Virus record (IMG/VR): IMGVR_UViG_3300044213_000047
Location: 1 to 52,837 of that record
Direction: 5' to 3' (one strand)
DNA length: 52,837 bases
Source: a virus
Positions 10,730 through 27,436 of the stretch are shown piece after piece. The translations under genes and the position numbers were made by a program. Each line of letters opens with the position of its first letter. The first letter of the stretch is position 1. The notes under the pieces are model-generated. The model was not told the origin of the DNA. It did no database searches and worked only from the letters and a program-made list of their open reading frames with translations.

Positions 10730-11412
10730 ACTTCTATACTTCCCATTTTATACACAGATTCTTCGTTTTTTTCTAATTCTTTTATAAAATCACTAAACTT
10801 AAAATGTATATTTGAAATTACCGCTAAACGATAGTCGTATCTCGCATTATCATAATCAGTTGGTTCAACGAAGTGAATTAAATATCCTGGATGTATAACC
10901 ATTAATCCACGTTCAACAGCGACACGTTTGAATGGAGTAAACTGATTGTGCCACAAACATCCACCACGTGGGTCAATCAACATAAGATTGCCAGCATTTC
11001 TTTTTGGAACGTTTATATAAAGAATACCAACTCCAAGTGTTTGAGCATGTTTGTGTGGAGATATTCTATAAACACTGTCTTGTTTGATCTCACGAAAATA
11101 TCCCTTGGAACCAAACAATGGTGGAAGTGGCATCTCAGAAAGTGGTCTATAATACTTGTCTGTTAACTCTACCATTTTCTTTTCTACTTGACGCATTGTA
11201 TCTGGTAAATCTGGAAGATCCCAAAGATTAGTTTTATTTAATGTTCCAGGTGCTCCTGGTTTTAACAAATATTGTACGTCTGCTTCTAATTTATCAAGGA
11301 ATGCGTCATCAAATGGTTTTGCAGTAATTACTGGAGTCGACCACAATTCATGACATTGCTCATTATTAGAAGTTTCGAGATACGTAATAGTTTTCTTTTC
11401 CATCATTTCCAT
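10726..11412 (-). CDS. 2OG-Fe(II) oxygenase family protein
   Basis: The 228-residue protein has SPHKHAQTLGVGILYINVP, GNLMLIDPRGG, then GLMVIHPGYLIHFVEP and RLAVISNI. This follows the phage 2OG-oxygenase layout: first His, short beta hairpin with DPR, distal His, and Arg for 2OG. A residue for the acidic ligand is not obvious. AAGGA precedes the ATG. It overlaps the methyltransferase gene by 4 nt, and a shared substrate within the cassette is plausible but unproven. Confidence 0.75.
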   Translation of the reverse strand: MEMMEKKTITYLETSNNEQCHELWSTPVITAKPFDDAFLDKLEADVQYLLKPGAPGTLNKTNLWDLPDLPDTMRQVEKKMVELTDKYYRPLSEMPLPPLFGSKGYFREIKQDSVYRISPHKHAQTLGVGILYINVPKRNAGNLMLIDPRGGCLWHNQFTPFKRVAVERGLMVIHPGYLIHFVEPTDYDNARYDYRLAVISNIHFKFSDFIKELEKNEESVYKMGSIEV

Positions 11413-11473
11413 AATTAATCCTTTAATCTGATTCTAAAAACCAATGAATGTCTATATTTGAATTGTTTATCCA

Positions 11474-12094
11474 TTACATCAACTCCTTAAAATTATCAAT
11501 ACAGTTTTCATAAGAACCGTAGGCTCTAGTCATATCTATAAGCATACCAATTCTGGTTTTATTTACATTATTAACACTATGTATATGGTTGTGATTAAAC
11601 GCATGCCAGTCACCACGCGACATAGTAAATGTGTATTTCTTTGATACATCAGATGGAGACCATACAGTTCCATAGATTGGATCTGCGTCAGAAGTATAAA
11701 AACTTGTAGCTGCTGTATCATCACTCAACATATAATAGAAAGAACACATGCGTGTACCGTCATTATGAATGAATGTGTGCTTGGTGTTTATAACCTGCAC
11801 AACGAAGTCGGTTTCTTCTGGGAATTTTACTGGGAGTTCTGATCTGATTCGATCACTGATGTTTCTGGGTAAACGCATACCACGATGTTGTGGCAGATAA
11901 TGAAACCCATAAAGGTTTTTGAGTGCGTTTAACTCATTAAGAACTTTAGTGTCATTATTCGCAATCGCATTCTGTTCAATCTCACCGATTGTGTTTTTAC
12001 TTACGTGTTCTGATACAGTTGATGAAATTTTTAATATCTCATTCTCAAGATCACCAGATAATCTGGGCAAATTCAATTTTATCAGAGGATTCAT
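11474..12094 (-). CDS. 2OG-oxygenase-like protein
   Basis: The 206-residue protein contains KHTFIHNDGTRMCSFYYML with an HxD pair, and later FNHNHIHSVNNVNKTRIGM with a distal His and Arg. This spacing fits a 2OG-Fe(II) dioxygenase of the asparaginyl/prolyl hydroxylase type. The first 90 residues are helical and unassigned. It precedes the other oxygenases of the same operon. Confidence 0.65.
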   Translation of the reverse strand: MNPLIKLNLPRLSGDLENEILKISSTVSEHVSKNTIGEIEQNAIANNDTKVLNELNALKNLYGFHYLPQHRGMRLPRNISDRIRSELPVKFPEETDFVVQVINTKHTFIHNDGTRMCSFYYMLSDDTAATSFYTSDADPIYGTVWSPSDVSKKYTFTMSRGDWHAFNHNHIHSVNNVNKTRIGMLIDMTRAYGSYENCIDNFKELM

Positions 12095-17799: not shown

Positions 17800-17874
17800 T
17801 GGTGGTGAAGGTTGGATTCGAGCCAACGACCTTTTCCGTATGAAGGAACTGCACTACCGCTGTGCTACATCACC
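17800..17874 (-). tRNA. tRNA-Met(CAT)
   Basis: GGTGATG/CTTCACC acceptor with one T:T mismatch, loop TTCATAC (CAT) on TTCC/GGAA, CCA encoded. The paired position 1 suggests an elongator or an Ile-type CAT tRNA. Confidence 0.82.
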
Positions 17875-18076
17875 ATTGTTGAAAGTACTGTCATCTGTTT
17901 AAGGAAATATAGTCTTGAATATAGCGTTCAAGCATTCATTCCCCTCTACCTTGGCAGATCTGCTCTTCGGTCCTCGTACCACCACAGTACATCGAGGGAC
18001 TCGGTAAAGGTCGGTATCACCCTGACAGTCAGGCTGCTGGTTAGGCAACTTCGCTCTCAGACTTTCAACAATGGTG
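17871..18076 (-). repeat. structured insert A with 16-bp inverted repeats
   Basis: CACCATTGTTGAAAGT (17871-17886) is perfectly inverted at 18061-18076. It encloses about 174 nt without a coding frame but with internal hairpins (CCTGACTGTCAGG, GCAGATCTGC). The base of the stem includes the CCA end of tRNA-Leu(TAG) and the first bases of tRNA-Met. See findings. Confidence 0.7.
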
Positions 18077-18157
18077 CGTCTGGTCAGACTCGAACTGACA
18101 CGCTTTTAGGGCACGAGCTTCTAAGACTCGCATGGCTACCAATTACATCACAGACGC
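18072..18157 (-). tRNA. tRNA-Leu(TAG)
   Basis: Perfect GCGTCTG/CAGACGC acceptor, loop CTTAGAA (TAG), a long variable arm as expected for Leu, T loop TTCGAGT and encoded CCA. Confidence 0.9.
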
Positions 18158-18300
18158 ATGGTGTATAATTTTACAACTCTCACATCGTAAAACCTAACGA
18201 CTCCACCTGCCGAATTACCGTAACGTGGCATTAACACGAACTTCATTGACGGAAGTTAATCGGATAGATGCTTTTTGCTCATGCCTATCATACGAGGAGA
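18158..18300 (-). other. non-coding spacer with hairpins
   Basis: This 143-nt spacer between an initiator-like tRNA and tRNA-Leu has no convincing gene. It holds hairpins AACTTC/GAAGTT and TTTTAC/GTAAAA. It may be a structured RNA like inserts A-C, but no inverted repeat joins its ends. Confidence 0.35.
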
Positions 18301-18375
18301 TGGTAGCGGGAGGTGGTAACGCTCCACCCTCGACATGGCTTATGAGACCATTCGGGTCGACTTGACCTTCCCGCA
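18301..18375 (-). tRNA. initiator-like tRNA-Met(CAT), atypical loops
   Basis: The cloverleaf closes with six acceptor pairs (GCGGGA/TCCCGC), a T:T mismatch at 1:72, A73 and encoded CCA, echoing the unpaired 1:72 of initiator tRNA. The anticodon loop CTCATAA sits on ATGGT/GCCAT. The D arm is GGTC/GACC with a 5-nt loop lacking GG, and the T arm is GGTGG/CCACC with loop AGCGTTA lacking TTC. It could be a specialised tRNA mimic or a decaying gene. Confidence 0.5.
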
Positions 18376-18380
18376 ACAGC

Positions 18381-18746
18381 TTATTGTTTAGACCACTCAG
18401 CAATCACCTTGCGATCTACACTTCTTTGTTCTCTTGTACCATATTTTGCTACCATGGCAACAATTCTTGGCACAATATACAACTGAAACATTCCATCATT
18501 GTTACGTTTCTTCTCAACATAACTGTATGGTTTACCAGCTAGATATGCTCTTGCTAATTCAGTGGCACGAGCTTCATTTCTAACATTCCACTTTCGATGA
18601 TTAGTCAAACTGTTTAATTTCCAGATAAGACTAGAATCAGTTCCTTTTGTATATTTTATCTGACCCTTGAGTTTGTTTTCTTCACGTTTGATGATAGATG
18701 GCTCAAGTGCCAAATGCTTTGCTTTAATTTTTAATTCGATACACAT
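18381..18746 (-). CDS. conserved phage protein, unknown function
   Basis: The start MCIELKIKAKHLALEPSIIK gives 121 residues. The block NHRKWNVRNEARATELARAY, followed by LAGKPYSYVEKKRN, is familiar from conserved proteins of T4-like and other phages. The basic, helical composition suggests nucleic-acid contact. It stands alone between tRNAs. Confidence 0.75.
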   Translation of the reverse strand: MCIELKIKAKHLALEPSIIKREENKLKGQIKYTKGTDSSLIWKLNSLTNHRKWNVRNEARATELARAYLAGKPYSYVEKKRNNDGMFQLYIVPRIVAMVAKYGTREQRSVDRKVIAEWSKQ

Positions 18747-18857
18747 TTTAATTTCCTTTGTTGTTAATTTTAGAAACATAATAAAAAACAAAAGAAACCT
18801 TACGGTGGACGAATCTAGGCTGACAATTTCTCCATGTCGCTTCTCCTTATAAAAAGT

Positions 18858-18934
18858 TGGTGCGTTAGACAGGAATCGAACCTGCTTCAGTCTGGTTTAG
18901 AATCAGCTACCCTTACCAAGTGGGCTACTAACGC
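18858..18934 (-). tRNA. tRNA with anticodon CTA (possible amber suppressor)
   Basis: GCGTTAG/CTAACGC acceptor, D stem GCCC/GGGT, T arm GCAGG-TTCGATT-CCTGT, A73 and CCA are regular. Counting from base 26, the anticodon arm is GCTGA-TTCTAAA-CCAGA, placing CTA at 34-36, which reads UAG. Only three central pairs hold the stem (27:43 and 31:39 mismatch). The neighbouring tRNA-Cys has the same mismatch pattern, which supports the register. Confidence 0.65.
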
Positions 18935-18948
18935 ATTTTATATATATC

Positions 18949-19023
18949 TGGCTCCAGAGGGTGGGATCGAACCACCGACCAATTGATTAACAGTCAACTG
19001 CACTACCGCTGTGCTACTCTGGA
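18949..19023 (-). tRNA. tRNA-Asn(GTT)
   Basis: TCCAGAG/CTCTGGA acceptor, loop CTGTTAA (GTT), T loop TTCGATC and encoded CCA. Confidence 0.92.
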
Positions 19024-19030
19024 ATAAAAC

Positions 19031-19105
19031 TGGCGACTCGTAGGAGAATCGAACTCCTGTGTCCTGCTAGACAGGCAGGCATAATAACCATTATATTAAC
19101 GAGCC
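19031..19105 (-). tRNA. tRNA-Asp(GTC)
   Basis: GGCTCGT/ACGAGTC acceptor, anticodon stem CCTGC/GCAGG with loop CTGTCTA (GTC), discriminator G and CCA. Confidence 0.92.
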
Positions 19106-19111
19106 AAATTT

Positions 19112-19202
19112 TGGTGGACAACAATGGGAATCTAACCCACTTCTTCCTCGTATGCTATTACGAAGTTTCAGACCAGCATCAGGTCATCACAACAGTAAGT
19201 CC
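19112..19202 (-). pseudogene. decayed tRNA-Ser-like sequence
   Basis: It has class II length with GGAC/GTCC at the acceptor base, T stem GTGGG/CCCAT (loop TTAGATT) and a terminal CCA. The anticodon region reads GGTCTGAAAC, one base short of a Ser TGA loop, and its stem no longer pairs. It is probably a degenerating tRNA-Ser; an intact tRNA-Ser(TGA) exists at 21078. Confidence 0.5.
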
Positions 19203-19212
19203 AAAATGTTTA

Positions 19213-19431
19213 TCAGTCAACCAAAAAACTAGAGTATTTTGGTTTGGTTATTTCTACCCATGCTTCAACACCTGGGTCGACCTCTTCAAACTGGTTTCCA
19301 TATGTAAACTCAAAACAACAATTTGCTGCTTGCCTGAAATTCTCGAAAACATACTTTTCGCCAGTTTTAGAATCCAACACCAATACATCATCAACACGGA
19401 GTTTGAATCTCTCAAAATGTTCATCAATCAT
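19213..19431 (-). CDS. hypothetical protein in tRNA array
   Basis: The start at MIDEHFERFKLRVDDVLVLD gives 72 residues with a compact alpha/beta pattern (SKTGEKYVFENFRQAANCCF, VEAWVEITKPKY). The 12-nt word taagtccaaaat flanks the gene on both sides (about 19196 and 19464), hinting at local duplication or insertion. Function unknown. Confidence 0.65.
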   Translation of the reverse strand: MIDEHFERFKLRVDDVLVLDSKTGEKYVFENFRQAANCCFEFTYGNQFEEVDPGVEAWVEITKPKYSSFLVD

Positions 19432-19476
19432 GATTGATCTCCTTGTTGCTATGTGTCTGATTATAAGTCCAAAATA

Positions 19477-19569
19477 TGGTGGAGCAACTTGGAGTCGAAC
19501 CAAGAATGTTTACCACGAGGGGACGGATTTACAGTCCGCCGATGCACACGCCATAGCATCAATTGCTCC
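19477..19569 (-). tRNA. tRNA-Tyr(GTA)
   Basis: Perfect GGAGCAA/TTGCTCC acceptor, loop CTGTAAA (GTA), long variable arm and encoded CCA. Confidence 0.93.
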
Positions 19570-19577
19570 GAAACTTT

Positions 19578-19776
19578 CCATTTGTTAGTGTTACTACGTT
19601 ATAGACAGCCTTCACCGTACTGCCGTTTGTTTTTAACGACCAAACTTATTTCCCAAGCGTCCAAGGGATCTTTGTTTGATAACAACTGTATACGTAGTCT
19701 ACTCGAGTTAACCACACATTGACAGATTCACTATCCTGCGATCACAGGAATTTTCCATAATAACACTAACAAATGG
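19578..19776 (-). repeat. structured insert B with 16-bp inverted repeats
   Basis: CCATTTGTTAGTGTTA (inverted at 19578-19593) and its partner at 19761-19776 are perfect complements. They enclose about 167 nt of non-coding sequence with hairpins such as CCTGTGATCGCAGG. The 5' arm starts with the CCA end of tRNA-Glu. Confidence 0.7.
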
Positions 19777-19848
19777 TACTGCGTACGAGAGTCGAACTCG
19801 TCTTCTCAGGTTGAAAACCTGATGTCCTAACCGATAGACGAACGCAGT
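19774..19848 (-). tRNA. tRNA-Glu(TTC)
   Basis: ACTGCGT/ACGCAGT acceptor, loop TTTTCAA (TTC) on TCAGG/CCTGA, and encoded CCA. Its 3' end begins insert B. Confidence 0.92.
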
Positions 19849-19866
19849 ATTAACTAACTAAACTCA

Positions 19867-19895
19867 ATTATACTTGATATTTAAATAAATGTCAA
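19867..19895 (-). promoter_or_regulatory. sigma70-like promoter inside tRNA array
   Basis: TTGACA (19890-19895), 17 bp, TATAAT (19867-19872). It starts transcription about 12 nt before tRNA-Glu, giving the distal half of the array a second promoter. Confidence 0.85.
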
Positions 19896-19907
19896 GCATT
19901 ATTTTTT

Positions 19908-19981
19908 TGGAGTAGGTGACAAGAATCGAACTTGCTTCCATGGGTTTGCAATCCAGTGCCCATCCAACTGGCTCCACCTAC
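19908..19981 (-). tRNA. tRNA-Cys(GCA)
   Basis: GTAGGTG/CACCTAC acceptor, anticodon loop TTGCAAA (GCA) with only three central stem pairs, T arm CAAG-TTCGATT-CTTG, CCA encoded. Confidence 0.88.
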
Positions 19982-19987
19982 ATAACT

Positions 19988-20065
19988 TGGTACCTCTGCT
20001 GAGATTCGAACTCAGAGAACTTCTCCTTTTGAGAGAGACGACTTTACCAATTTGTCCACAGAGGC
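19988..20065 (-). tRNA. tRNA with anticodon CAA (Leu codon, short variable loop)
   Basis: GCCTCTG/CAGAGGT acceptor, anticodon stem TCTCT/GGAGA with loop CTCAAAA (CAA), T arm CTGAG-TTCGAAT-CTCAG, and CCA. The variable region is only about 6 nt, unlike normal bacterial Leu tRNAs. Confidence 0.8.
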
Positions 20066-20070
20066 ATACT

Positions 20071-20145
20071 TGGCCTCGCCTGAAGGAATCGAACCCTCAT
20101 TCGTAGGGTAGAAACCTACTGTATTATCCATTATACTAAAGCGAG
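20071..20145 (-). tRNA. tRNA-Arg(TCT)
   Basis: CTCGCTT/AGGCGAG acceptor, GTAGG-TTTCTAC-CCTAC anticodon arm (TCT), discriminator G and CCA. Confidence 0.9.
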
Positions 20146-20150
20146 ATAAT

Positions 20151-20227
20151 TGGTGCGGAAGGCGAGACTCGAACTCGCAGAACTCAGATTTTAAGTCTGA
20201 TATGTATACCAATTCCATCACATCCGC
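20151..20227 (-). tRNA. tRNA-Leu(TAA), short variable loop
   Basis: GCGGATG/CTTCCGC acceptor with one T:T mismatch, TCAGA-CTTAAAA-TCTGA (TAA), D arm GATGGAATTGGTATACAT of Leu type. The variable loop is only about 5 nt where Leu tRNAs carry a long arm. Confidence 0.85.
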
Positions 20228-20233
20228 AAAATT

Positions 20234-20328
20234 TGGTACTCCCGACAGGATTCGAACCTGTATCATCCCCTAATCTGGAGGCATTGCCGAGGTATAAGCT
20301 CGGAGTTTTACCATTAAACTACAGGAGT
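20234..20328 (-). tRNA. tRNA-Ile(TAT)-anticodon tRNA with long variable arm
   Basis: ACTCCTG/CGGGAGT acceptor, CCGAG-CTTATAC-CTCGG anticodon arm (TAT), and a 25-nt variable region with a CCTC/GGGG stem before a normal T arm and CCA. Ile tRNAs normally have short variable loops, so charging identity is uncertain. Confidence 0.8.
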
Positions 20329-20398
20329 ATGGCTCCGTCATATTTTTTATTTTAACAGGGCGAGAACGGAAGCACCCCTGATTAGCTGCAGCGCAACT

Positions 20399-20488
20399 TG
20401 GTGGAGAGTGTGGGAGTCGAACCCACTGACCGTATTCCTACGATCTACAGTTTAGCAAACTGCTGCATTACCATCCTGCCCACTCTCC
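20399..20488 (-). tRNA. tRNA-Ser(GCT)
   Basis: GGAGAGT/ACTCTCC acceptor, CAGT-TTGCTAA-ACTG (GCT), long variable arm and CCA. The metallophosphatase stop codon is the next base upstream. Confidence 0.92.
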
Positions 20489-21055
20489 TTAATAGTTACC
20501 ATTCTTGAAACCCACAGTACCACCCTGCTCCTGAATCCTTTTTAGAACTTCTTCAAAAAGGATGGGTCTGAACTCAGTTTGCTCTACGCACACAGAGAAG
20601 TACCGTGGATCAATTATCTCACCCATTTTCTTATCATCATACATAACTCTGTTGCTATGTAAGTGACCATGAATGTTGCAACCGAATCGTCTTAGTTGAT
20701 CAGGATGAACAGGGATGTGAGAAAGAATTAAACCATTCATAACATGGTAAGCACGAATGTCTCTAAAGTATTTGGTATAATCCTCTAACTTAAAGATATC
20801 GTGGTTACCTTTGATTAAAACCTTATCACCATTCAGACGATGCATAATGTGTAACGATTTTCTGTTAATCACAACATCACCTAAGTGGTAAACCTTATCG
20901 TTGGGTTTAACTGTTTCGTTCCACAGTTTAACCATTGCTTCATCCATTTCTTCAACAGAATCCCAAGGACGAAGTTTCGTACCATCCGCACGCAAGAACT
21001 TAGTCACACCAGCGTGACCAAAGTGCGTATCGCTTACTAAGAATACACTCGGCAT
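20489..21055 (-). CDS. calcineurin-like metallophosphoesterase
   Basis: The ATG with GGAAAAGTT upstream gives 188 residues. The five metal-binding blocks are visible in order: DTHFGH, GDVV, GNHD, a His in ILSHIPVH, and GHLH. This matches small phosphoesterases of the YfcE/YvnB type acting on phosphodiesters or nucleotides. Similar enzymes near phage RNA-repair or tRNA genes may clear 2',3'-cyclic phosphates, but the substrate cannot be told here. Confidence 0.88.
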   Translation of the reverse strand: MPSVFLVSDTHFGHAGVTKFLRADGTKLRPWDSVEEMDEAMVKLWNETVKPNDKVYHLGDVVINRKSLHIMHRLNGDKVLIKGNHDIFKLEDYTKYFRDIRAYHVMNGLILSHIPVHPDQLRRFGCNIHGHLHSNRVMYDDKKMGEIIDPRYFSVCVEQTEFRPILFEEVLKRIQEQGGTVGFKNGNY

Positions 21056-21077
21056 AACTTTTCCTTTCATAAAAAAA

Positions 21078-21169
21078 TGGAGGAGACGGTGGGATTCGAA
21101 CCCACGGAGCTATCTCTAACCCGACAGTTTTCAAGACTGTTGCCATAAACCAGACTCGACCACGTCTCC
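21078..21169 (-). tRNA. tRNA-Ser(TGA)
   Basis: GGAGACG/CGTCTCC acceptor, ACAGT-CTTGAAA-ACTGT (TGA), long variable arm and CCA. Confidence 0.92.
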
Positions 21170-21175
21170 ATAACT

Positions 21176-21250
21176 TGGCACCCAATGAGAGAATCAAACT
21201 CCCAACCCAGCGTTCGTAGCACTGTGTGATATTCATTTCACCAATCGGGT
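21176..21250 (-). tRNA. tRNA-Arg(ACG)
   Basis: ACCCGAT/ATTGGGT acceptor, CAGTG-CTACGAA-CGCTG (ACG), T arm GGGAG-TTTGATT-CTCTC, and CCA. Confidence 0.9.
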
Positions 21251-21256
21251 ATAACT

Positions 21257-21331
21257 TGGTACCTTGTGACAGATTCGAACTGCCGACATCCCACTTGTAA
21301 GGAGGGAGCTCTACCACTGAGCTAACAAGGC
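21257..21331 (-). tRNA. tRNA-Val(TAC)
   Basis: GCCTTGT/ACAAGGT acceptor, loop CTTACAA (TAC), T arm GGCAG-TTCGAAT-CTGTC, and CCA. Confidence 0.9.
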
Positions 21332-21333
21332 AT

Positions 21334-21409
21334 TGGAGCGGGAGACGAGGTTCGAACTCGCGACATCTTGCTTGGCAAGCAAGCTCTCTACCAACTGAGA
21401 TACTCCCGC
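21334..21409 (-). tRNA. tRNA-Gly(GCC)
   Basis: GCGGGAG/CTCCCGC acceptor, CTTGC-TTGCCAA-GCAAG (GCC) and encoded CCA. Confidence 0.93.
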
Positions 21410-21418
21410 ATAAAAATT

Positions 21419-21493
21419 TGGTGGACCGTAAGAGAATCGAACTCTTACCTCTGACGTGCAAAGCCAGCGTGCTCCCATTATCACTAACAGCCC
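21419..21493 (-). tRNA. tRNA-Ala(TGC)
   Basis: GGGCTGT/ACGGTCC acceptor, CTGGC-TTTGCAC-GTCAG (TGC) and CCA. The G3:T70 pair recalls the Ala identity element. Confidence 0.9.
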
Positions 21494-21498
21494 AAAAC

Positions 21499-21572
21499 TG
21501 GTCTCGGTGGAAAGAATCGAACTTTCGACACATGGTCCCAAACCACGAATTTTACCACTAAACTACACCGAG
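21499..21572 (-). tRNA. tRNA-Pro(TGG)
   Basis: CTCGGTG/CACCGAG acceptor, CGTGG-TTTGGGA-CCATG (TGG) and CCA. Confidence 0.92.
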
Positions 21573-21578
21573 AAAAAC

Positions 21579-21652
21579 TGGTGCCCCACGACAGAATCGA
21601 ACTGCCGTATTCGGATTACAAAACCGACGTAATACCATTATACGAGTAGGGC
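21579..21652 (-). tRNA. tRNA-Thr(TGT)
   Basis: GCCCTAC/GTGGGGC acceptor, TCGG-based stem with loop TTTGTAA (TGT), and CCA. It is a second Thr tRNA beside the AGT one at 17429. Confidence 0.9.
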
Positions 21653-21659
21653 GAAAACT

Positions 21660-21734
21660 TGGTCCCTTAGGTAAGAATTGAACTTACTACCAATGCCTTA
21701 TCAAGACACTGCTCTACCAATGAGCTACTAAGGG
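21660..21734 (-). tRNA. tRNA-Ile(GAT)
   Basis: CCCTTAG/CTAAGGG acceptor, GTGTC-TTGATAA-GGCAT (GAT) and CCA. Confidence 0.9.
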
Positions 21735-21742
21735 ATAATATT

Positions 21743-21818
21743 TGGTGCAACCTGCAGGAATCGAACCTGCTTCATCGGATTTTCAATCCGCTGCTATGAC
21801 CACATCAGCTAAGGTTAC
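21743..21818 (-). tRNA. tRNA-Phe(GAA)
   Basis: GTAACCT/AGGTTGC acceptor, GCGGA-TTGAAAA-TCCGA (GAA) and CCA. Confidence 0.92.
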
Positions 21819-21820
21819 AT

Positions 21821-21896
21821 TGGGGTGAACTATGAGGATCGAACTCATACTATCTCGGTCACAGCGAGATGTGCAGACCACTACACTAAGAACACC
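21821..21896 (-). tRNA. tRNA-His(GTG)
   Basis: TCTCG-CTGTGAC-CGAGA anticodon arm (GTG). An extra 5' G pairs with C73, the tRNA-His hallmark. Two T:T mismatches lie in the acceptor. Confidence 0.88.
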
Positions 21897-21904
21897 ATCG
21901 AAAC

Positions 21905-21980
21905 TGGTACGGGTAGAGAGACTCGAACTCTCAACTTCCTGGTTAAAAGCCAGATACTCTACCAATTGAGTTATACCCGC
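21905..21980 (-). tRNA. tRNA-Lys(TTT)
   Basis: GCGGGTA/TACCCGT acceptor, loop CTTTTAA (TTT), T arm GAGAG-TTCGAGT-CTCTC, and CCA. Confidence 0.92.
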
Positions 21981-21984
21981 ATTA

Positions 21985-22207
21985 CCAAACAAAATCACAC
22001 TGGGATGATCAGCAGTAACCATCACCCGATGGCTAACCACGTATTCGTCATACGACTGACCGCATCTCACATTACGATCTAGATTACTCCAGCGTCCTCC
22101 TGATATTATCTCAAGGTTTCTTGATATCATGGCGCACCCATCTCCGTCGAGACAGCTAATGCCCATGTACCCTACTGGATCTAGCAACCCAATGCAATTT
22201 TGTTTGG
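21985..22207 (-). repeat. structured insert C with 11-bp inverted repeats
   Basis: CCAAACAAAAT (minus strand, starting with the CCA of tRNA-Gln at 22197-22207) is inverted at 21985-21995, just before tRNA-Lys. About 200 nt of non-coding sequence between the arms contains short hairpins. Confidence 0.6.
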
Positions 22208-22280
22208 CACCCCCTGATGGATTCGAACCACCGCATGACGGAATCAAAATCCGTTGCCTTACCAGCTTGGCGAAGAGGGT
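22205..22280 (-). tRNA. tRNA-Gln(TTG)
   Basis: ACCCTCT/AGGGGGT acceptor, CGGA-TTTTGAT-TCCG (TTG), discriminator G and CCA. It is the first tRNA downstream of the promoter at 22338. Confidence 0.92.
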
Positions 22281-22337
22281 ACAGAGTCCTAATTGTTAAA
22301 GATCGTTTGGTTGACAATTCAATCAACCAGAACTTGA

Positions 22338-22366
22338 AGTATACGCTTAATTAGCATTTACGTCAA
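22338..22366 (-). promoter_or_regulatory. sigma70-like promoter of tRNA array
   Basis: TTGACG (22361-22366), 17 bp, TATACT (22338-22343). Transcription would start about 50 nt before tRNA-Gln. Confidence 0.8.
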
Positions 22367-22585: not shown

Positions 22586-22614
22586 ATTATACTTCCGTTT
22601 TGATTAAATGTCAA
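22586..22614 (-). promoter_or_regulatory. sigma70-like promoter
   Basis: TTGACA (22609-22614), 17 bp, TATAAT (22586-22591). It lies directly before the 37-codon frame and attenuator and is the second of three tandem promoters ahead of the tRNAs. Confidence 0.87.
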
Positions 22615-22674: not shown

Positions 22675-22703
22675 ATTATACACGCAAAATGACTAAATGT
22701 CAA
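22675..22703 (-). promoter_or_regulatory. sigma70-like promoter
   Basis: TTGACA (22698-22703), 17 bp, TATAAT (22675-22680), just after the Fe-S carrier gene. A CTAAATA box overlaps its expected start region (22664-22670). Confidence 0.85.
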
Positions 22704-24836: not shown

Positions 24837-24865
24837 ATTATACCCTATTTATGTTTAAATGTCAA
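24837..24865 (-). promoter_or_regulatory. sigma70-like promoter
   Basis: TTGACA (24860-24865), 17 bp, TATAAT (24837-24842). A ribosome site AGGAAGG follows before the exported protein gene. Confidence 0.88.
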
Positions 24866-27407: not shown

Positions 27408-27436
27408 ATTATACCCTATTTCTGAATATTTGTCAA
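27408..27436 (-). promoter_or_regulatory. sigma70-like promoter
   Basis: TTGACA (27431-27436), 17 bp, TATAAT (27408-27413). It lies across the TAG stop of the alpha/beta hydrolase gene. Confidence 0.88.

Follow-up and report, generated by a model that had tools for sequence, protein, structure and literature searches.

Structured RNAs between the tRNA genes of a viral genome

The tRNA arrays of phages are treated as lists of tRNAs, and we ask here what occupies the gaps between the genes. We examined one such array in the IMG/VR virus record IMGVR_UViG_3300044213_000047, from a lake-type virus; its 52.8 kilobases (kb; 52,837 nucleotides, nt) were analysed at full length and are referred to here as the window. 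ARAGORN predicts 26 tRNAs in the window, 25 of them clustered at 17.4-22.3 kb and all of these on the minus strand, and related proteins point to phages of Methylophilales and Pelagibacter, which we take to be T4-like. A first-pass annotation had described three non-coding inserts within the cluster (Table 1), bounded by perfect inverted repeats of 16, 16 and 11 base pairs (bp), and these are present as described. Comparison with related loci indicates that such gaps contain an extensive and unlabelled class of RNA genes that share a testable architecture, in which a structured RNA is closed by a helix fitted to the sequence that flanks it.

The arms of insert 1, read on the minus strand (CACCATTGTTGAAAGT / ACTTTCAACAATGGTG), form 16 perfect pairs. 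Insert 2 likewise has 16 perfect pairs, within a stem of 21 bp in the predicted fold, and the 11 perfect pairs of insert 3 become 20 bp when G-U pairs are counted. The predicted folds of all three inserts are multibranched, with a closing stem of 16-21 bp in each case, and have energies of -66.6, -67.5 and -86.9 kcal/mol for inserts 1, 2 and 3 and z-scores of -3.7, -6.2 and -5.6 relative to dinucleotide shuffles; 0 of 200 shuffles folded as well as the corresponding insert. The 5' arm had been said to start exactly at the CCA of the upstream tRNA. This holds for inserts 2 and 3, whereas in insert 1 the pairing begins two bases ahead of CCA (C72-A73), and both tRNA ends sit in the insert 1 stem because its 3' arm finishes in the GGUG of tRNA-Met. 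A search of the window with Rfam (gathering thresholds and E<=10) found only tRNA above threshold and placed the inserts in no family, and a Blast comparison of inserts 2 and 3 and one element of the Lys type (see below) with phage isolates gave nothing beyond chance.

RNA families and covariation of the closing stems

A neighbouring phosphoesterase gene was used as bait to retrieve 80 related loci (numbered with the prefix L), and these together with the window constitute an unbiased set, picked without regard to stems. The full locus set also includes loci fetched by stem pattern; since the latter are biased to one stem type, rates and comparisons of Lys, Glu and Gln tRNAs are taken from the unbiased loci. 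The relatives, which are fragments from metagenomes, cannot be treated as mutually independent.

Among themselves the three insert bodies share no sequence, as noted in the first-pass annotation, but they are not without relatives: nhmmer found 39 matches in the loci to the family of insert 2 (i2) and 48 to that of insert 3 (i3), while insert 1 is related to an element in L176 (1.7e-20), to the near-duplicates L021, L023, L024 and L161 (3.5e-7) and weakly to L423, L170 and L189. The i2 and i3 families are new and are each represented at many loci. Copies of i3 lie directly behind a tRNA in 34 of 48 cases (Glu(UUC) 24, Gln 4, Ile 3, Glu(CUC) 2 and Leu 1), and those of i2 in 16 of 39 according to the ARAGORN calls. 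Clustering of 223 distinct elements gave 148 body clusters; insert 1, whose stem did not pass the automatic cut-off, was added by hand. Identical or similar bodies recur behind different tRNAs with differing outer stems, as in the case of one body found behind Glu (L090) and Lys (L158). This agrees with part of an earlier suggestion that the stems are the ends of mobile RNAs, but across 14 records no single record yielded more than one full-length match to the i2 model or to the i3 model; shorter i3 matches (about 30-40 bits) are, in our reading, other elements with the common closing stem.

Partial, edge or near-identical matches were removed before alignment, which left 37 of the 48 i3 matches (alignment A1) and 28 of the 39 i2 matches, 26 of which were aligned (A2), with L441 and L004 left out. 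The i2 closing stem (20 pairs) is paired in 98.5% of cells and shows compensatory changes in 13 of its 20 pairs, amounting to 94 cells; shuffles gave 79.3% and 25 cells, and 0 of 500 reached the observed values. For the i3 closing stem (22 pairs) the corresponding figures are 94.4% of cells, 12 of 22 pairs and 98 cells, compared with 83.2% and 36 cells in shuffles, none of 500 reaching the observed level on both measures, although 29 of the 500 reached the observed number of changed pairs and 47 the number of pair types. Sliding the stems by 1-3 columns reduced pairing to 31-59% (i2) and 33-44% (i3). Uncompensated loss of pairing in relatives would have spoken against the stems, and the opposite is seen. 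Among the non-Watson-Crick cells of the stems, G-U is far more frequent than A-C (42:2 in i2 and 68:7 in i3, together 110:9). Covariation and the excess of G-U over A-C therefore indicate selection at the level of RNA, on the strand that carries the tRNAs; a DNA repeat or selection on the other strand is disfavoured, since neither would yield this asymmetry.

Adaptation of the stem to its flank

Where the upstream tRNA ends in ACCA, the 3' arm ends in UGGU, and the outermost pairs follow the upstream flank. Thus the GCCA of a tRNA-Asn with G73 (L423) is paired with UGGC. Representatives of i2 also occur behind non-CCA flanks with outer pairs that still match (L395, L413, L429, L085, L392, L430 and L336), for example tgata...tatca in L395, tagtatt...aatacta in L413 and ccaagt...atttgg in L429, and in L430, L336 and L338 the element is located directly behind i3 and pairs with the end of i3. 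At the position of C74 the i2 pair is C-G in 16 sequences, U-A in 5, G-U in 3, A-U in 1 and U-G in 1, and it is broken in none. Nine i3 copies (L301, L088, L193, L195, L145, L122, L148, L188 and L097) follow a boxA-like leader and have the arms CTATATG/CATATAG, while stand-alone copies in L343 and L286 begin right at the stem, with their own TTGACA-17-TATAAT directly upstream.

The stems had been proposed to trap the CCA ends of tRNAs. As the outer pairs switch with flanks other than tRNA, the pairing of CCA is a consequence of the neighbour, and the stem is a clamp fitted to its flank rather than a CCA-specific device. The unit is therefore the RNA with its terminal helix, and the CCA of a tRNA is drafted in when it is adjacent. 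A helix of this kind can be retained by changing along with the adjacent sequence, and such RNAs are for this reason readily located in a search for arms that start at a tRNA CCA.

Frequency and geometry of the clamp

After removal of redundant tRNAs and identical stems, 60 of 903 CCA-ended tRNAs in the unbiased loci possess a paired downstream arm. The same test applied to the full locus set gave 225 of 2703, compared with 11 in a control that took the arm from inside the tRNA and 18 in one that took the downstream part from another locus; a stricter cut-off gave 167 arms versus 1 and 3. Lys(UUU), Glu(UUC) and Gln(UUG) account for 48 of the 60 clamped tRNAs, a rate of 48/96 for these tRNAs versus 12/807 for the remainder, and this bias could come partly from descent. 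The possibility that it is caused by a U at base 72 was rejected, because copies with C72 are clamped in 6 of 14 cases versus 42 of 77 for U72, and U72 tRNAs other than Lys, Glu and Gln are clamped in only 3 of 144.

A pattern that represents one of the common 3' arms matched at least 120 viral stretches, and a matching upstream arm, with 16-18 of 18 positions paired, is present in 144 of 149 viral pattern matches. In 84,980 cellular genomes the pattern gave 64 matches, close to our own estimate of chance expectation, and none of these has a real second arm (at most 16/18 paired). Within the viral loci of the full set, 163 of 171 pattern matches have the arm (both strands of near-palindromic elements being counted), and 103 of the 163 begin no more than 3 nt from an ARAGORN tRNA end. 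Many of the remaining matches adjoin another RNA ending in NCCA, including tRNAs with odd T-loops, which ARAGORN overlooks.

A helix profile of 61 elements, comprising those of the 60 clamped tRNAs and insert 1, again added by hand, shows pairing of A76 in all 61, of C75 in 59, of C74 in 58, of base 73 in 50 and of base 72 in 38 (G-U included). Pairing is at background by base 71 in the outward direction and fades inwards between +18 and +20. Stem lengths are narrowly distributed, with 20-22 bp in 32 of 60 and 19-23 bp in 42 of 60. Seven elements have a 3' arm whose final GG is at the same time the opening GG of the tRNA that follows, an arrangement similar to that of insert 1. Stems of the Lys type retain an A-C mismatch at +7 (12 of 61 elements), and their left and right arms show fixed differences.

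Promoters and operon position

The same layout is observed twice in the window, whereby a promoter is followed by a tRNA and an insert. The sigma-70-like promoter leading to tRNA-Gln and insert 3 is a consensus match only and is followed by a leader with a boxA-like sequence, GATCTTTAACAATT, which we liken to the E. coli rrn boxA as found in the antitermination leaders of rRNA operons; tRNA-Glu and insert 2 are preceded by a perfect TTGACA-17-TATAAT, of which the window contains 5 against 0.03 expected. In the unbiased loci, excluding tRNAs too close to a contig end, 26 of 31 promoter-proximal Lys, Glu and Gln tRNAs are clamped compared with 21 of 64 in other positions, and for the remaining tRNAs the figures are 4 of 59 (promoter-proximal) and 8 of 735.

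Table 1. Positions in the window of the inserts, adjoining tRNA genes, promoters and related features.
Feature	Position	Strand	Remarks
tRNA-Met	17800-17874	-	5' GGUG is the end of the insert 1 3' arm
Insert 1, structured RNA	17871-18076	-	arms 18061-18076 and 17871-17886, 16 bp
tRNA-Leu(UAG)	18072-18157	-	ARAGORN; CCA inside insert 1 stem
Insert 2, structured RNA, family i2	19578-19776	-	closing stem 21 bp
tRNA-Glu(UUC)	19774-19848	-	ARAGORN; CCA inside insert 2 stem
Perfect promoter TTGACA-17-TATAAT	19867-19895	-	ahead of tRNA-Glu and insert 2
Phosphoesterase gene	20489-21070		bait for related loci
Insert 3, structured RNA, family i3	21985-22207	-	closing stem 20 bp
tRNA-Gln(UUG)	22205-22280	-	ARAGORN; CCA inside insert 3 stem
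boxA-like sequence	22291-22304	-	behind hairpin (about 22308-22329)
Sigma-70-like promoter TTGACG-17-TATACT	22338-22366	-	leads to tRNA-Gln and insert 3
Perfect promoter TTGACA-17-TATAAT	22586-22614	-	
Perfect promoter TTGACA-17-TATAAT	22675-22703	-	
Perfect promoter TTGACA-17-TATAAT	24837-24865	-	
Perfect promoter TTGACA-17-TATAAT	27408-27436	-	

Proposed processing and alternative explanations

We interpret the inserts as small structured RNA genes of antiterminated tRNA operons, enclosed by a two-turn terminal helix of about 21 bp and probably excised by host RNase III, a reading that we would give a probability of roughly 0.55. Transcription would start at strong sigma-70 promoters and, in the window, would pass through a boxA-type antitermination leader. 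A two-turn helix could then form around each RNA, as around 16S and 23S rRNA in pre-rRNA, and RNase III of the host may cut near its middle. For a helix extending from base 72 to +18 the midpoint lies at about +8, close to the A-C mismatch at +7 in Lys-type stems and to mismatches that i3 also tolerates (9 of 37), and a cut there would give the tRNA a short A/U-rich trailer. A single cut would free the small RNA and leave the upstream tRNA with this short single-stranded trailer, which ordinary exonucleases could trim to CCA.

RNase III cuts the helices that bracket the rRNAs in bacterial pre-rRNA, and rRNA operons use boxA antitermination. The clamped RNAs are comparable in that a long helix brackets a structured RNA within a stable-RNA transcript, with a boxA-like leader in the window, and differ in that their bodies are only about 20-200 nt long, the helix is built with the sequence of the neighbour and the cleavage is a prediction. 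As in an RNase III processing stem, the loop is closed by a helix roughly two turns long, and covariation maintains this helix. RNase III sites had already been put forward for these stems in the first-pass annotation, and we also favour them: the stems are conserved and act as RNA, while the cut itself is predicted. Before this cut, the paired RCCA may hold back 3' maturation of the tRNA and possibly cleavage by RNase P. The part of PMC9433436 that concerns this point reports that RCCA paired with the 5' leader slows RNase P in vitro; the partner of RCCA is there the 5' leader, whereas in the inserts it is the downstream arm.

Several observations weigh against excision by RNase III from antiterminated operons. 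An RNase III gene was found in 0 of 13 phage records searched, so that the host enzyme would have to cut, and the bias towards Lys, Glu and Gln tRNAs is unexplained by a pure processing role. A boxA-like sequence is present at only 23 of 90 promoter-proximal tRNAs, and some i3 stems accommodate mismatches, with one pair mismatched in 13 of 37 sequences. The non-Watson-Crick positions in the unbiased tRNA scan comprise 80 G-U, 38 A-C and 51 others, a weaker asymmetry than in i2 and i3, due in part to the A-C retained at +7 by Lys-type stems. Finally, the shortest elements (39-43 nt, in L092, L070 and L086) are almost bare hairpins, and the stem therefore cannot serve solely to release a cargo RNA.

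An alternative that we consider somewhat unlikely is that the helix is the P1 stem of a stable small RNA and protects its ends, the usual tRNA enzymes separating the RNAs and the host CCA-adding enzyme repairing the tRNA. The stand-alone copies that begin at the stem (L343 and L286) and the conservation of the bodies would be expected if this were so, but it leaves unexplained both the continual adaptation of the stem to its flank and its narrow length (19-23 bp in 42 of 60). A different role, in which the stem gates the 3' end of Lys, Glu and Gln tRNAs through late maturation, no charging or nuclease resistance, with the body as sensor or filler, would accord with the preference for these tRNAs (48/96 versus 12/807) and for promoter-proximal positions (26/31), with the existence of nearly body-less hairpins and with the inhibition of RNase P by RCCA pairing in the portion of PMC9433436 referred to above. 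We nevertheless regard gating as quite improbable, as these RNAs are also found where no tRNA precedes them, their outer stem then being fitted to another flank, and the bodies form conserved families. It is highly unlikely that the inserts are DNA elements with terminal inverted repeats that target tRNA 3' ends, similar to miniature inverted-repeat transposable elements or integron cassettes: the recurrence of one body after different tRNAs, its outer stem differing between them (for example L090 and L158), and the fixed arm differences of the Lys type could be taken in this sense, but the G-U to A-C ratio of 110:9 in i2 and i3 would be even for a DNA repeat, full-length matches do not exceed one per family per record (14 records) and the outer bases follow the flank.

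Beyond RNase III excision as such, we offer the more speculative and still doubtful proposal that a modular, fast-changing repertoire of structured RNAs plugs into tRNA operons by means of a clamp of about 21 bp refitted to each neighbour, and that the clamp couples RNA release to the maturation of tRNAs with UUN anticodons (Lys, Glu and Gln). Such tRNAs are targets of anticodon nucleases that hosts use in antiviral defence, and the cargo RNAs could for that reason act in this conflict as decoys or as inhibitors.

Relation to known RNAs of phage tRNA arrays

Stable RNAs encoded in the tRNA arrays of T4 have been known for decades. RNA C and RNA D of T4 (species 1 and 2 RNA) resemble the clamped elements in being structured non-tRNA RNAs located directly behind a phage tRNA-Arg, but identity was rejected, as their predicted folds have no CCA-anchored closing stem and the i3 model (R2), the only insert model run on T4, had no match there at E<=1. 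Theta ribozymes, which are similar to those of hepatitis delta virus (HDV), are likewise structured RNAs that begin at phage tRNA 3' ends and have a proposed role in 3' processing; according to the sections of PMC10879173 that describe them, they have G1 at the cleavage site and mostly follow tRNAs without encoded CCA. The clamped elements, in contrast, have a CCA that is encoded and paired. A theta or other HDV-like ribozyme was rejected on the basis of the base after CCA (T in 46, A in 11, G in 2 and C in 1 of 60), and the ribozyme families of Rfam gave no match in the window at gathering threshold or E<=10.

GOLLD (RF02032) is also a large structured RNA of phage tRNA arrays, in some cases the same ones, but the inserts show no RF02032 match (gathering, E<=10), and no CCA anchoring was seen at the one GOLLD copy inspected (L301). 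GOLLD RNAs (158-206 bits) were located at L301:2526-2991, L018:9011-9474 and L077:10386-10786, and those of L301 and L018 contain a tRNA match. L018 also has a Group I intron match (65.7 bits; 11373-11575, plus strand), next to a tRNA array that contains both clamped elements and GOLLD.

As far as tested, the flank-adapted closing helix is absent from T4 RNA C and D, GOLLD and theta ribozymes, and we found no description of this layout in the open-access PMC literature. The clamped RNAs thus appear to be new structured-RNA families of phage tRNA arrays, with a clamp that appears to be undescribed. They provide a handle on how long phage tRNA transcripts become mature RNAs and on the purpose of the other stable RNAs of the arrays.

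Other RNAs in the arrays

Among the tRNA-like genes missed by ARAGORN are some with the T-loop AGCGTTA in place of TTCGAxx, found in the window (about 18301-18375, minus strand), L130 and L154; the latter two sit upstream of their elements, and the anticodon is CAT in the window copy and TTT in that of L130. The window also encodes a tRNA with a CUA anticodon (18858-18934, minus strand), a tRNA-Pyl according to ARAGORN and a possible amber suppressor. Genes resembling tRNA-His, with no CCA and an acceptor stem lengthened by about 8-10 bp, are present in L003 and L004 (behind tRNA-Lys in both), L163 and L168.

Recurrent array elements of the form TTTTAGGATxCTTTCAGCAA...GAATCCTGTTG are found at L393:80-188 (minus strand), with a similar layout in L070, L080, L009, L059 and L003, and some of them enclose a circularly permuted tRNA-like sequence in which the T-arm half precedes the D-arm half. 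They show a sub-threshold Rfam match (36.7 bits) to YrlA, a Y RNA-like RNA, and are therefore probably phage Y-like RNAs; a search of 14 records found no Ro60 gene. A further inter-tRNA RNA of about 225 nt (L011:9030-9256, L041:2877-3101 and L048:2783-3009) contains the conserved sequences CAGCAAG... and TGATCGGAAGATCG..., and differs from the clamped elements in its CCA anchoring.

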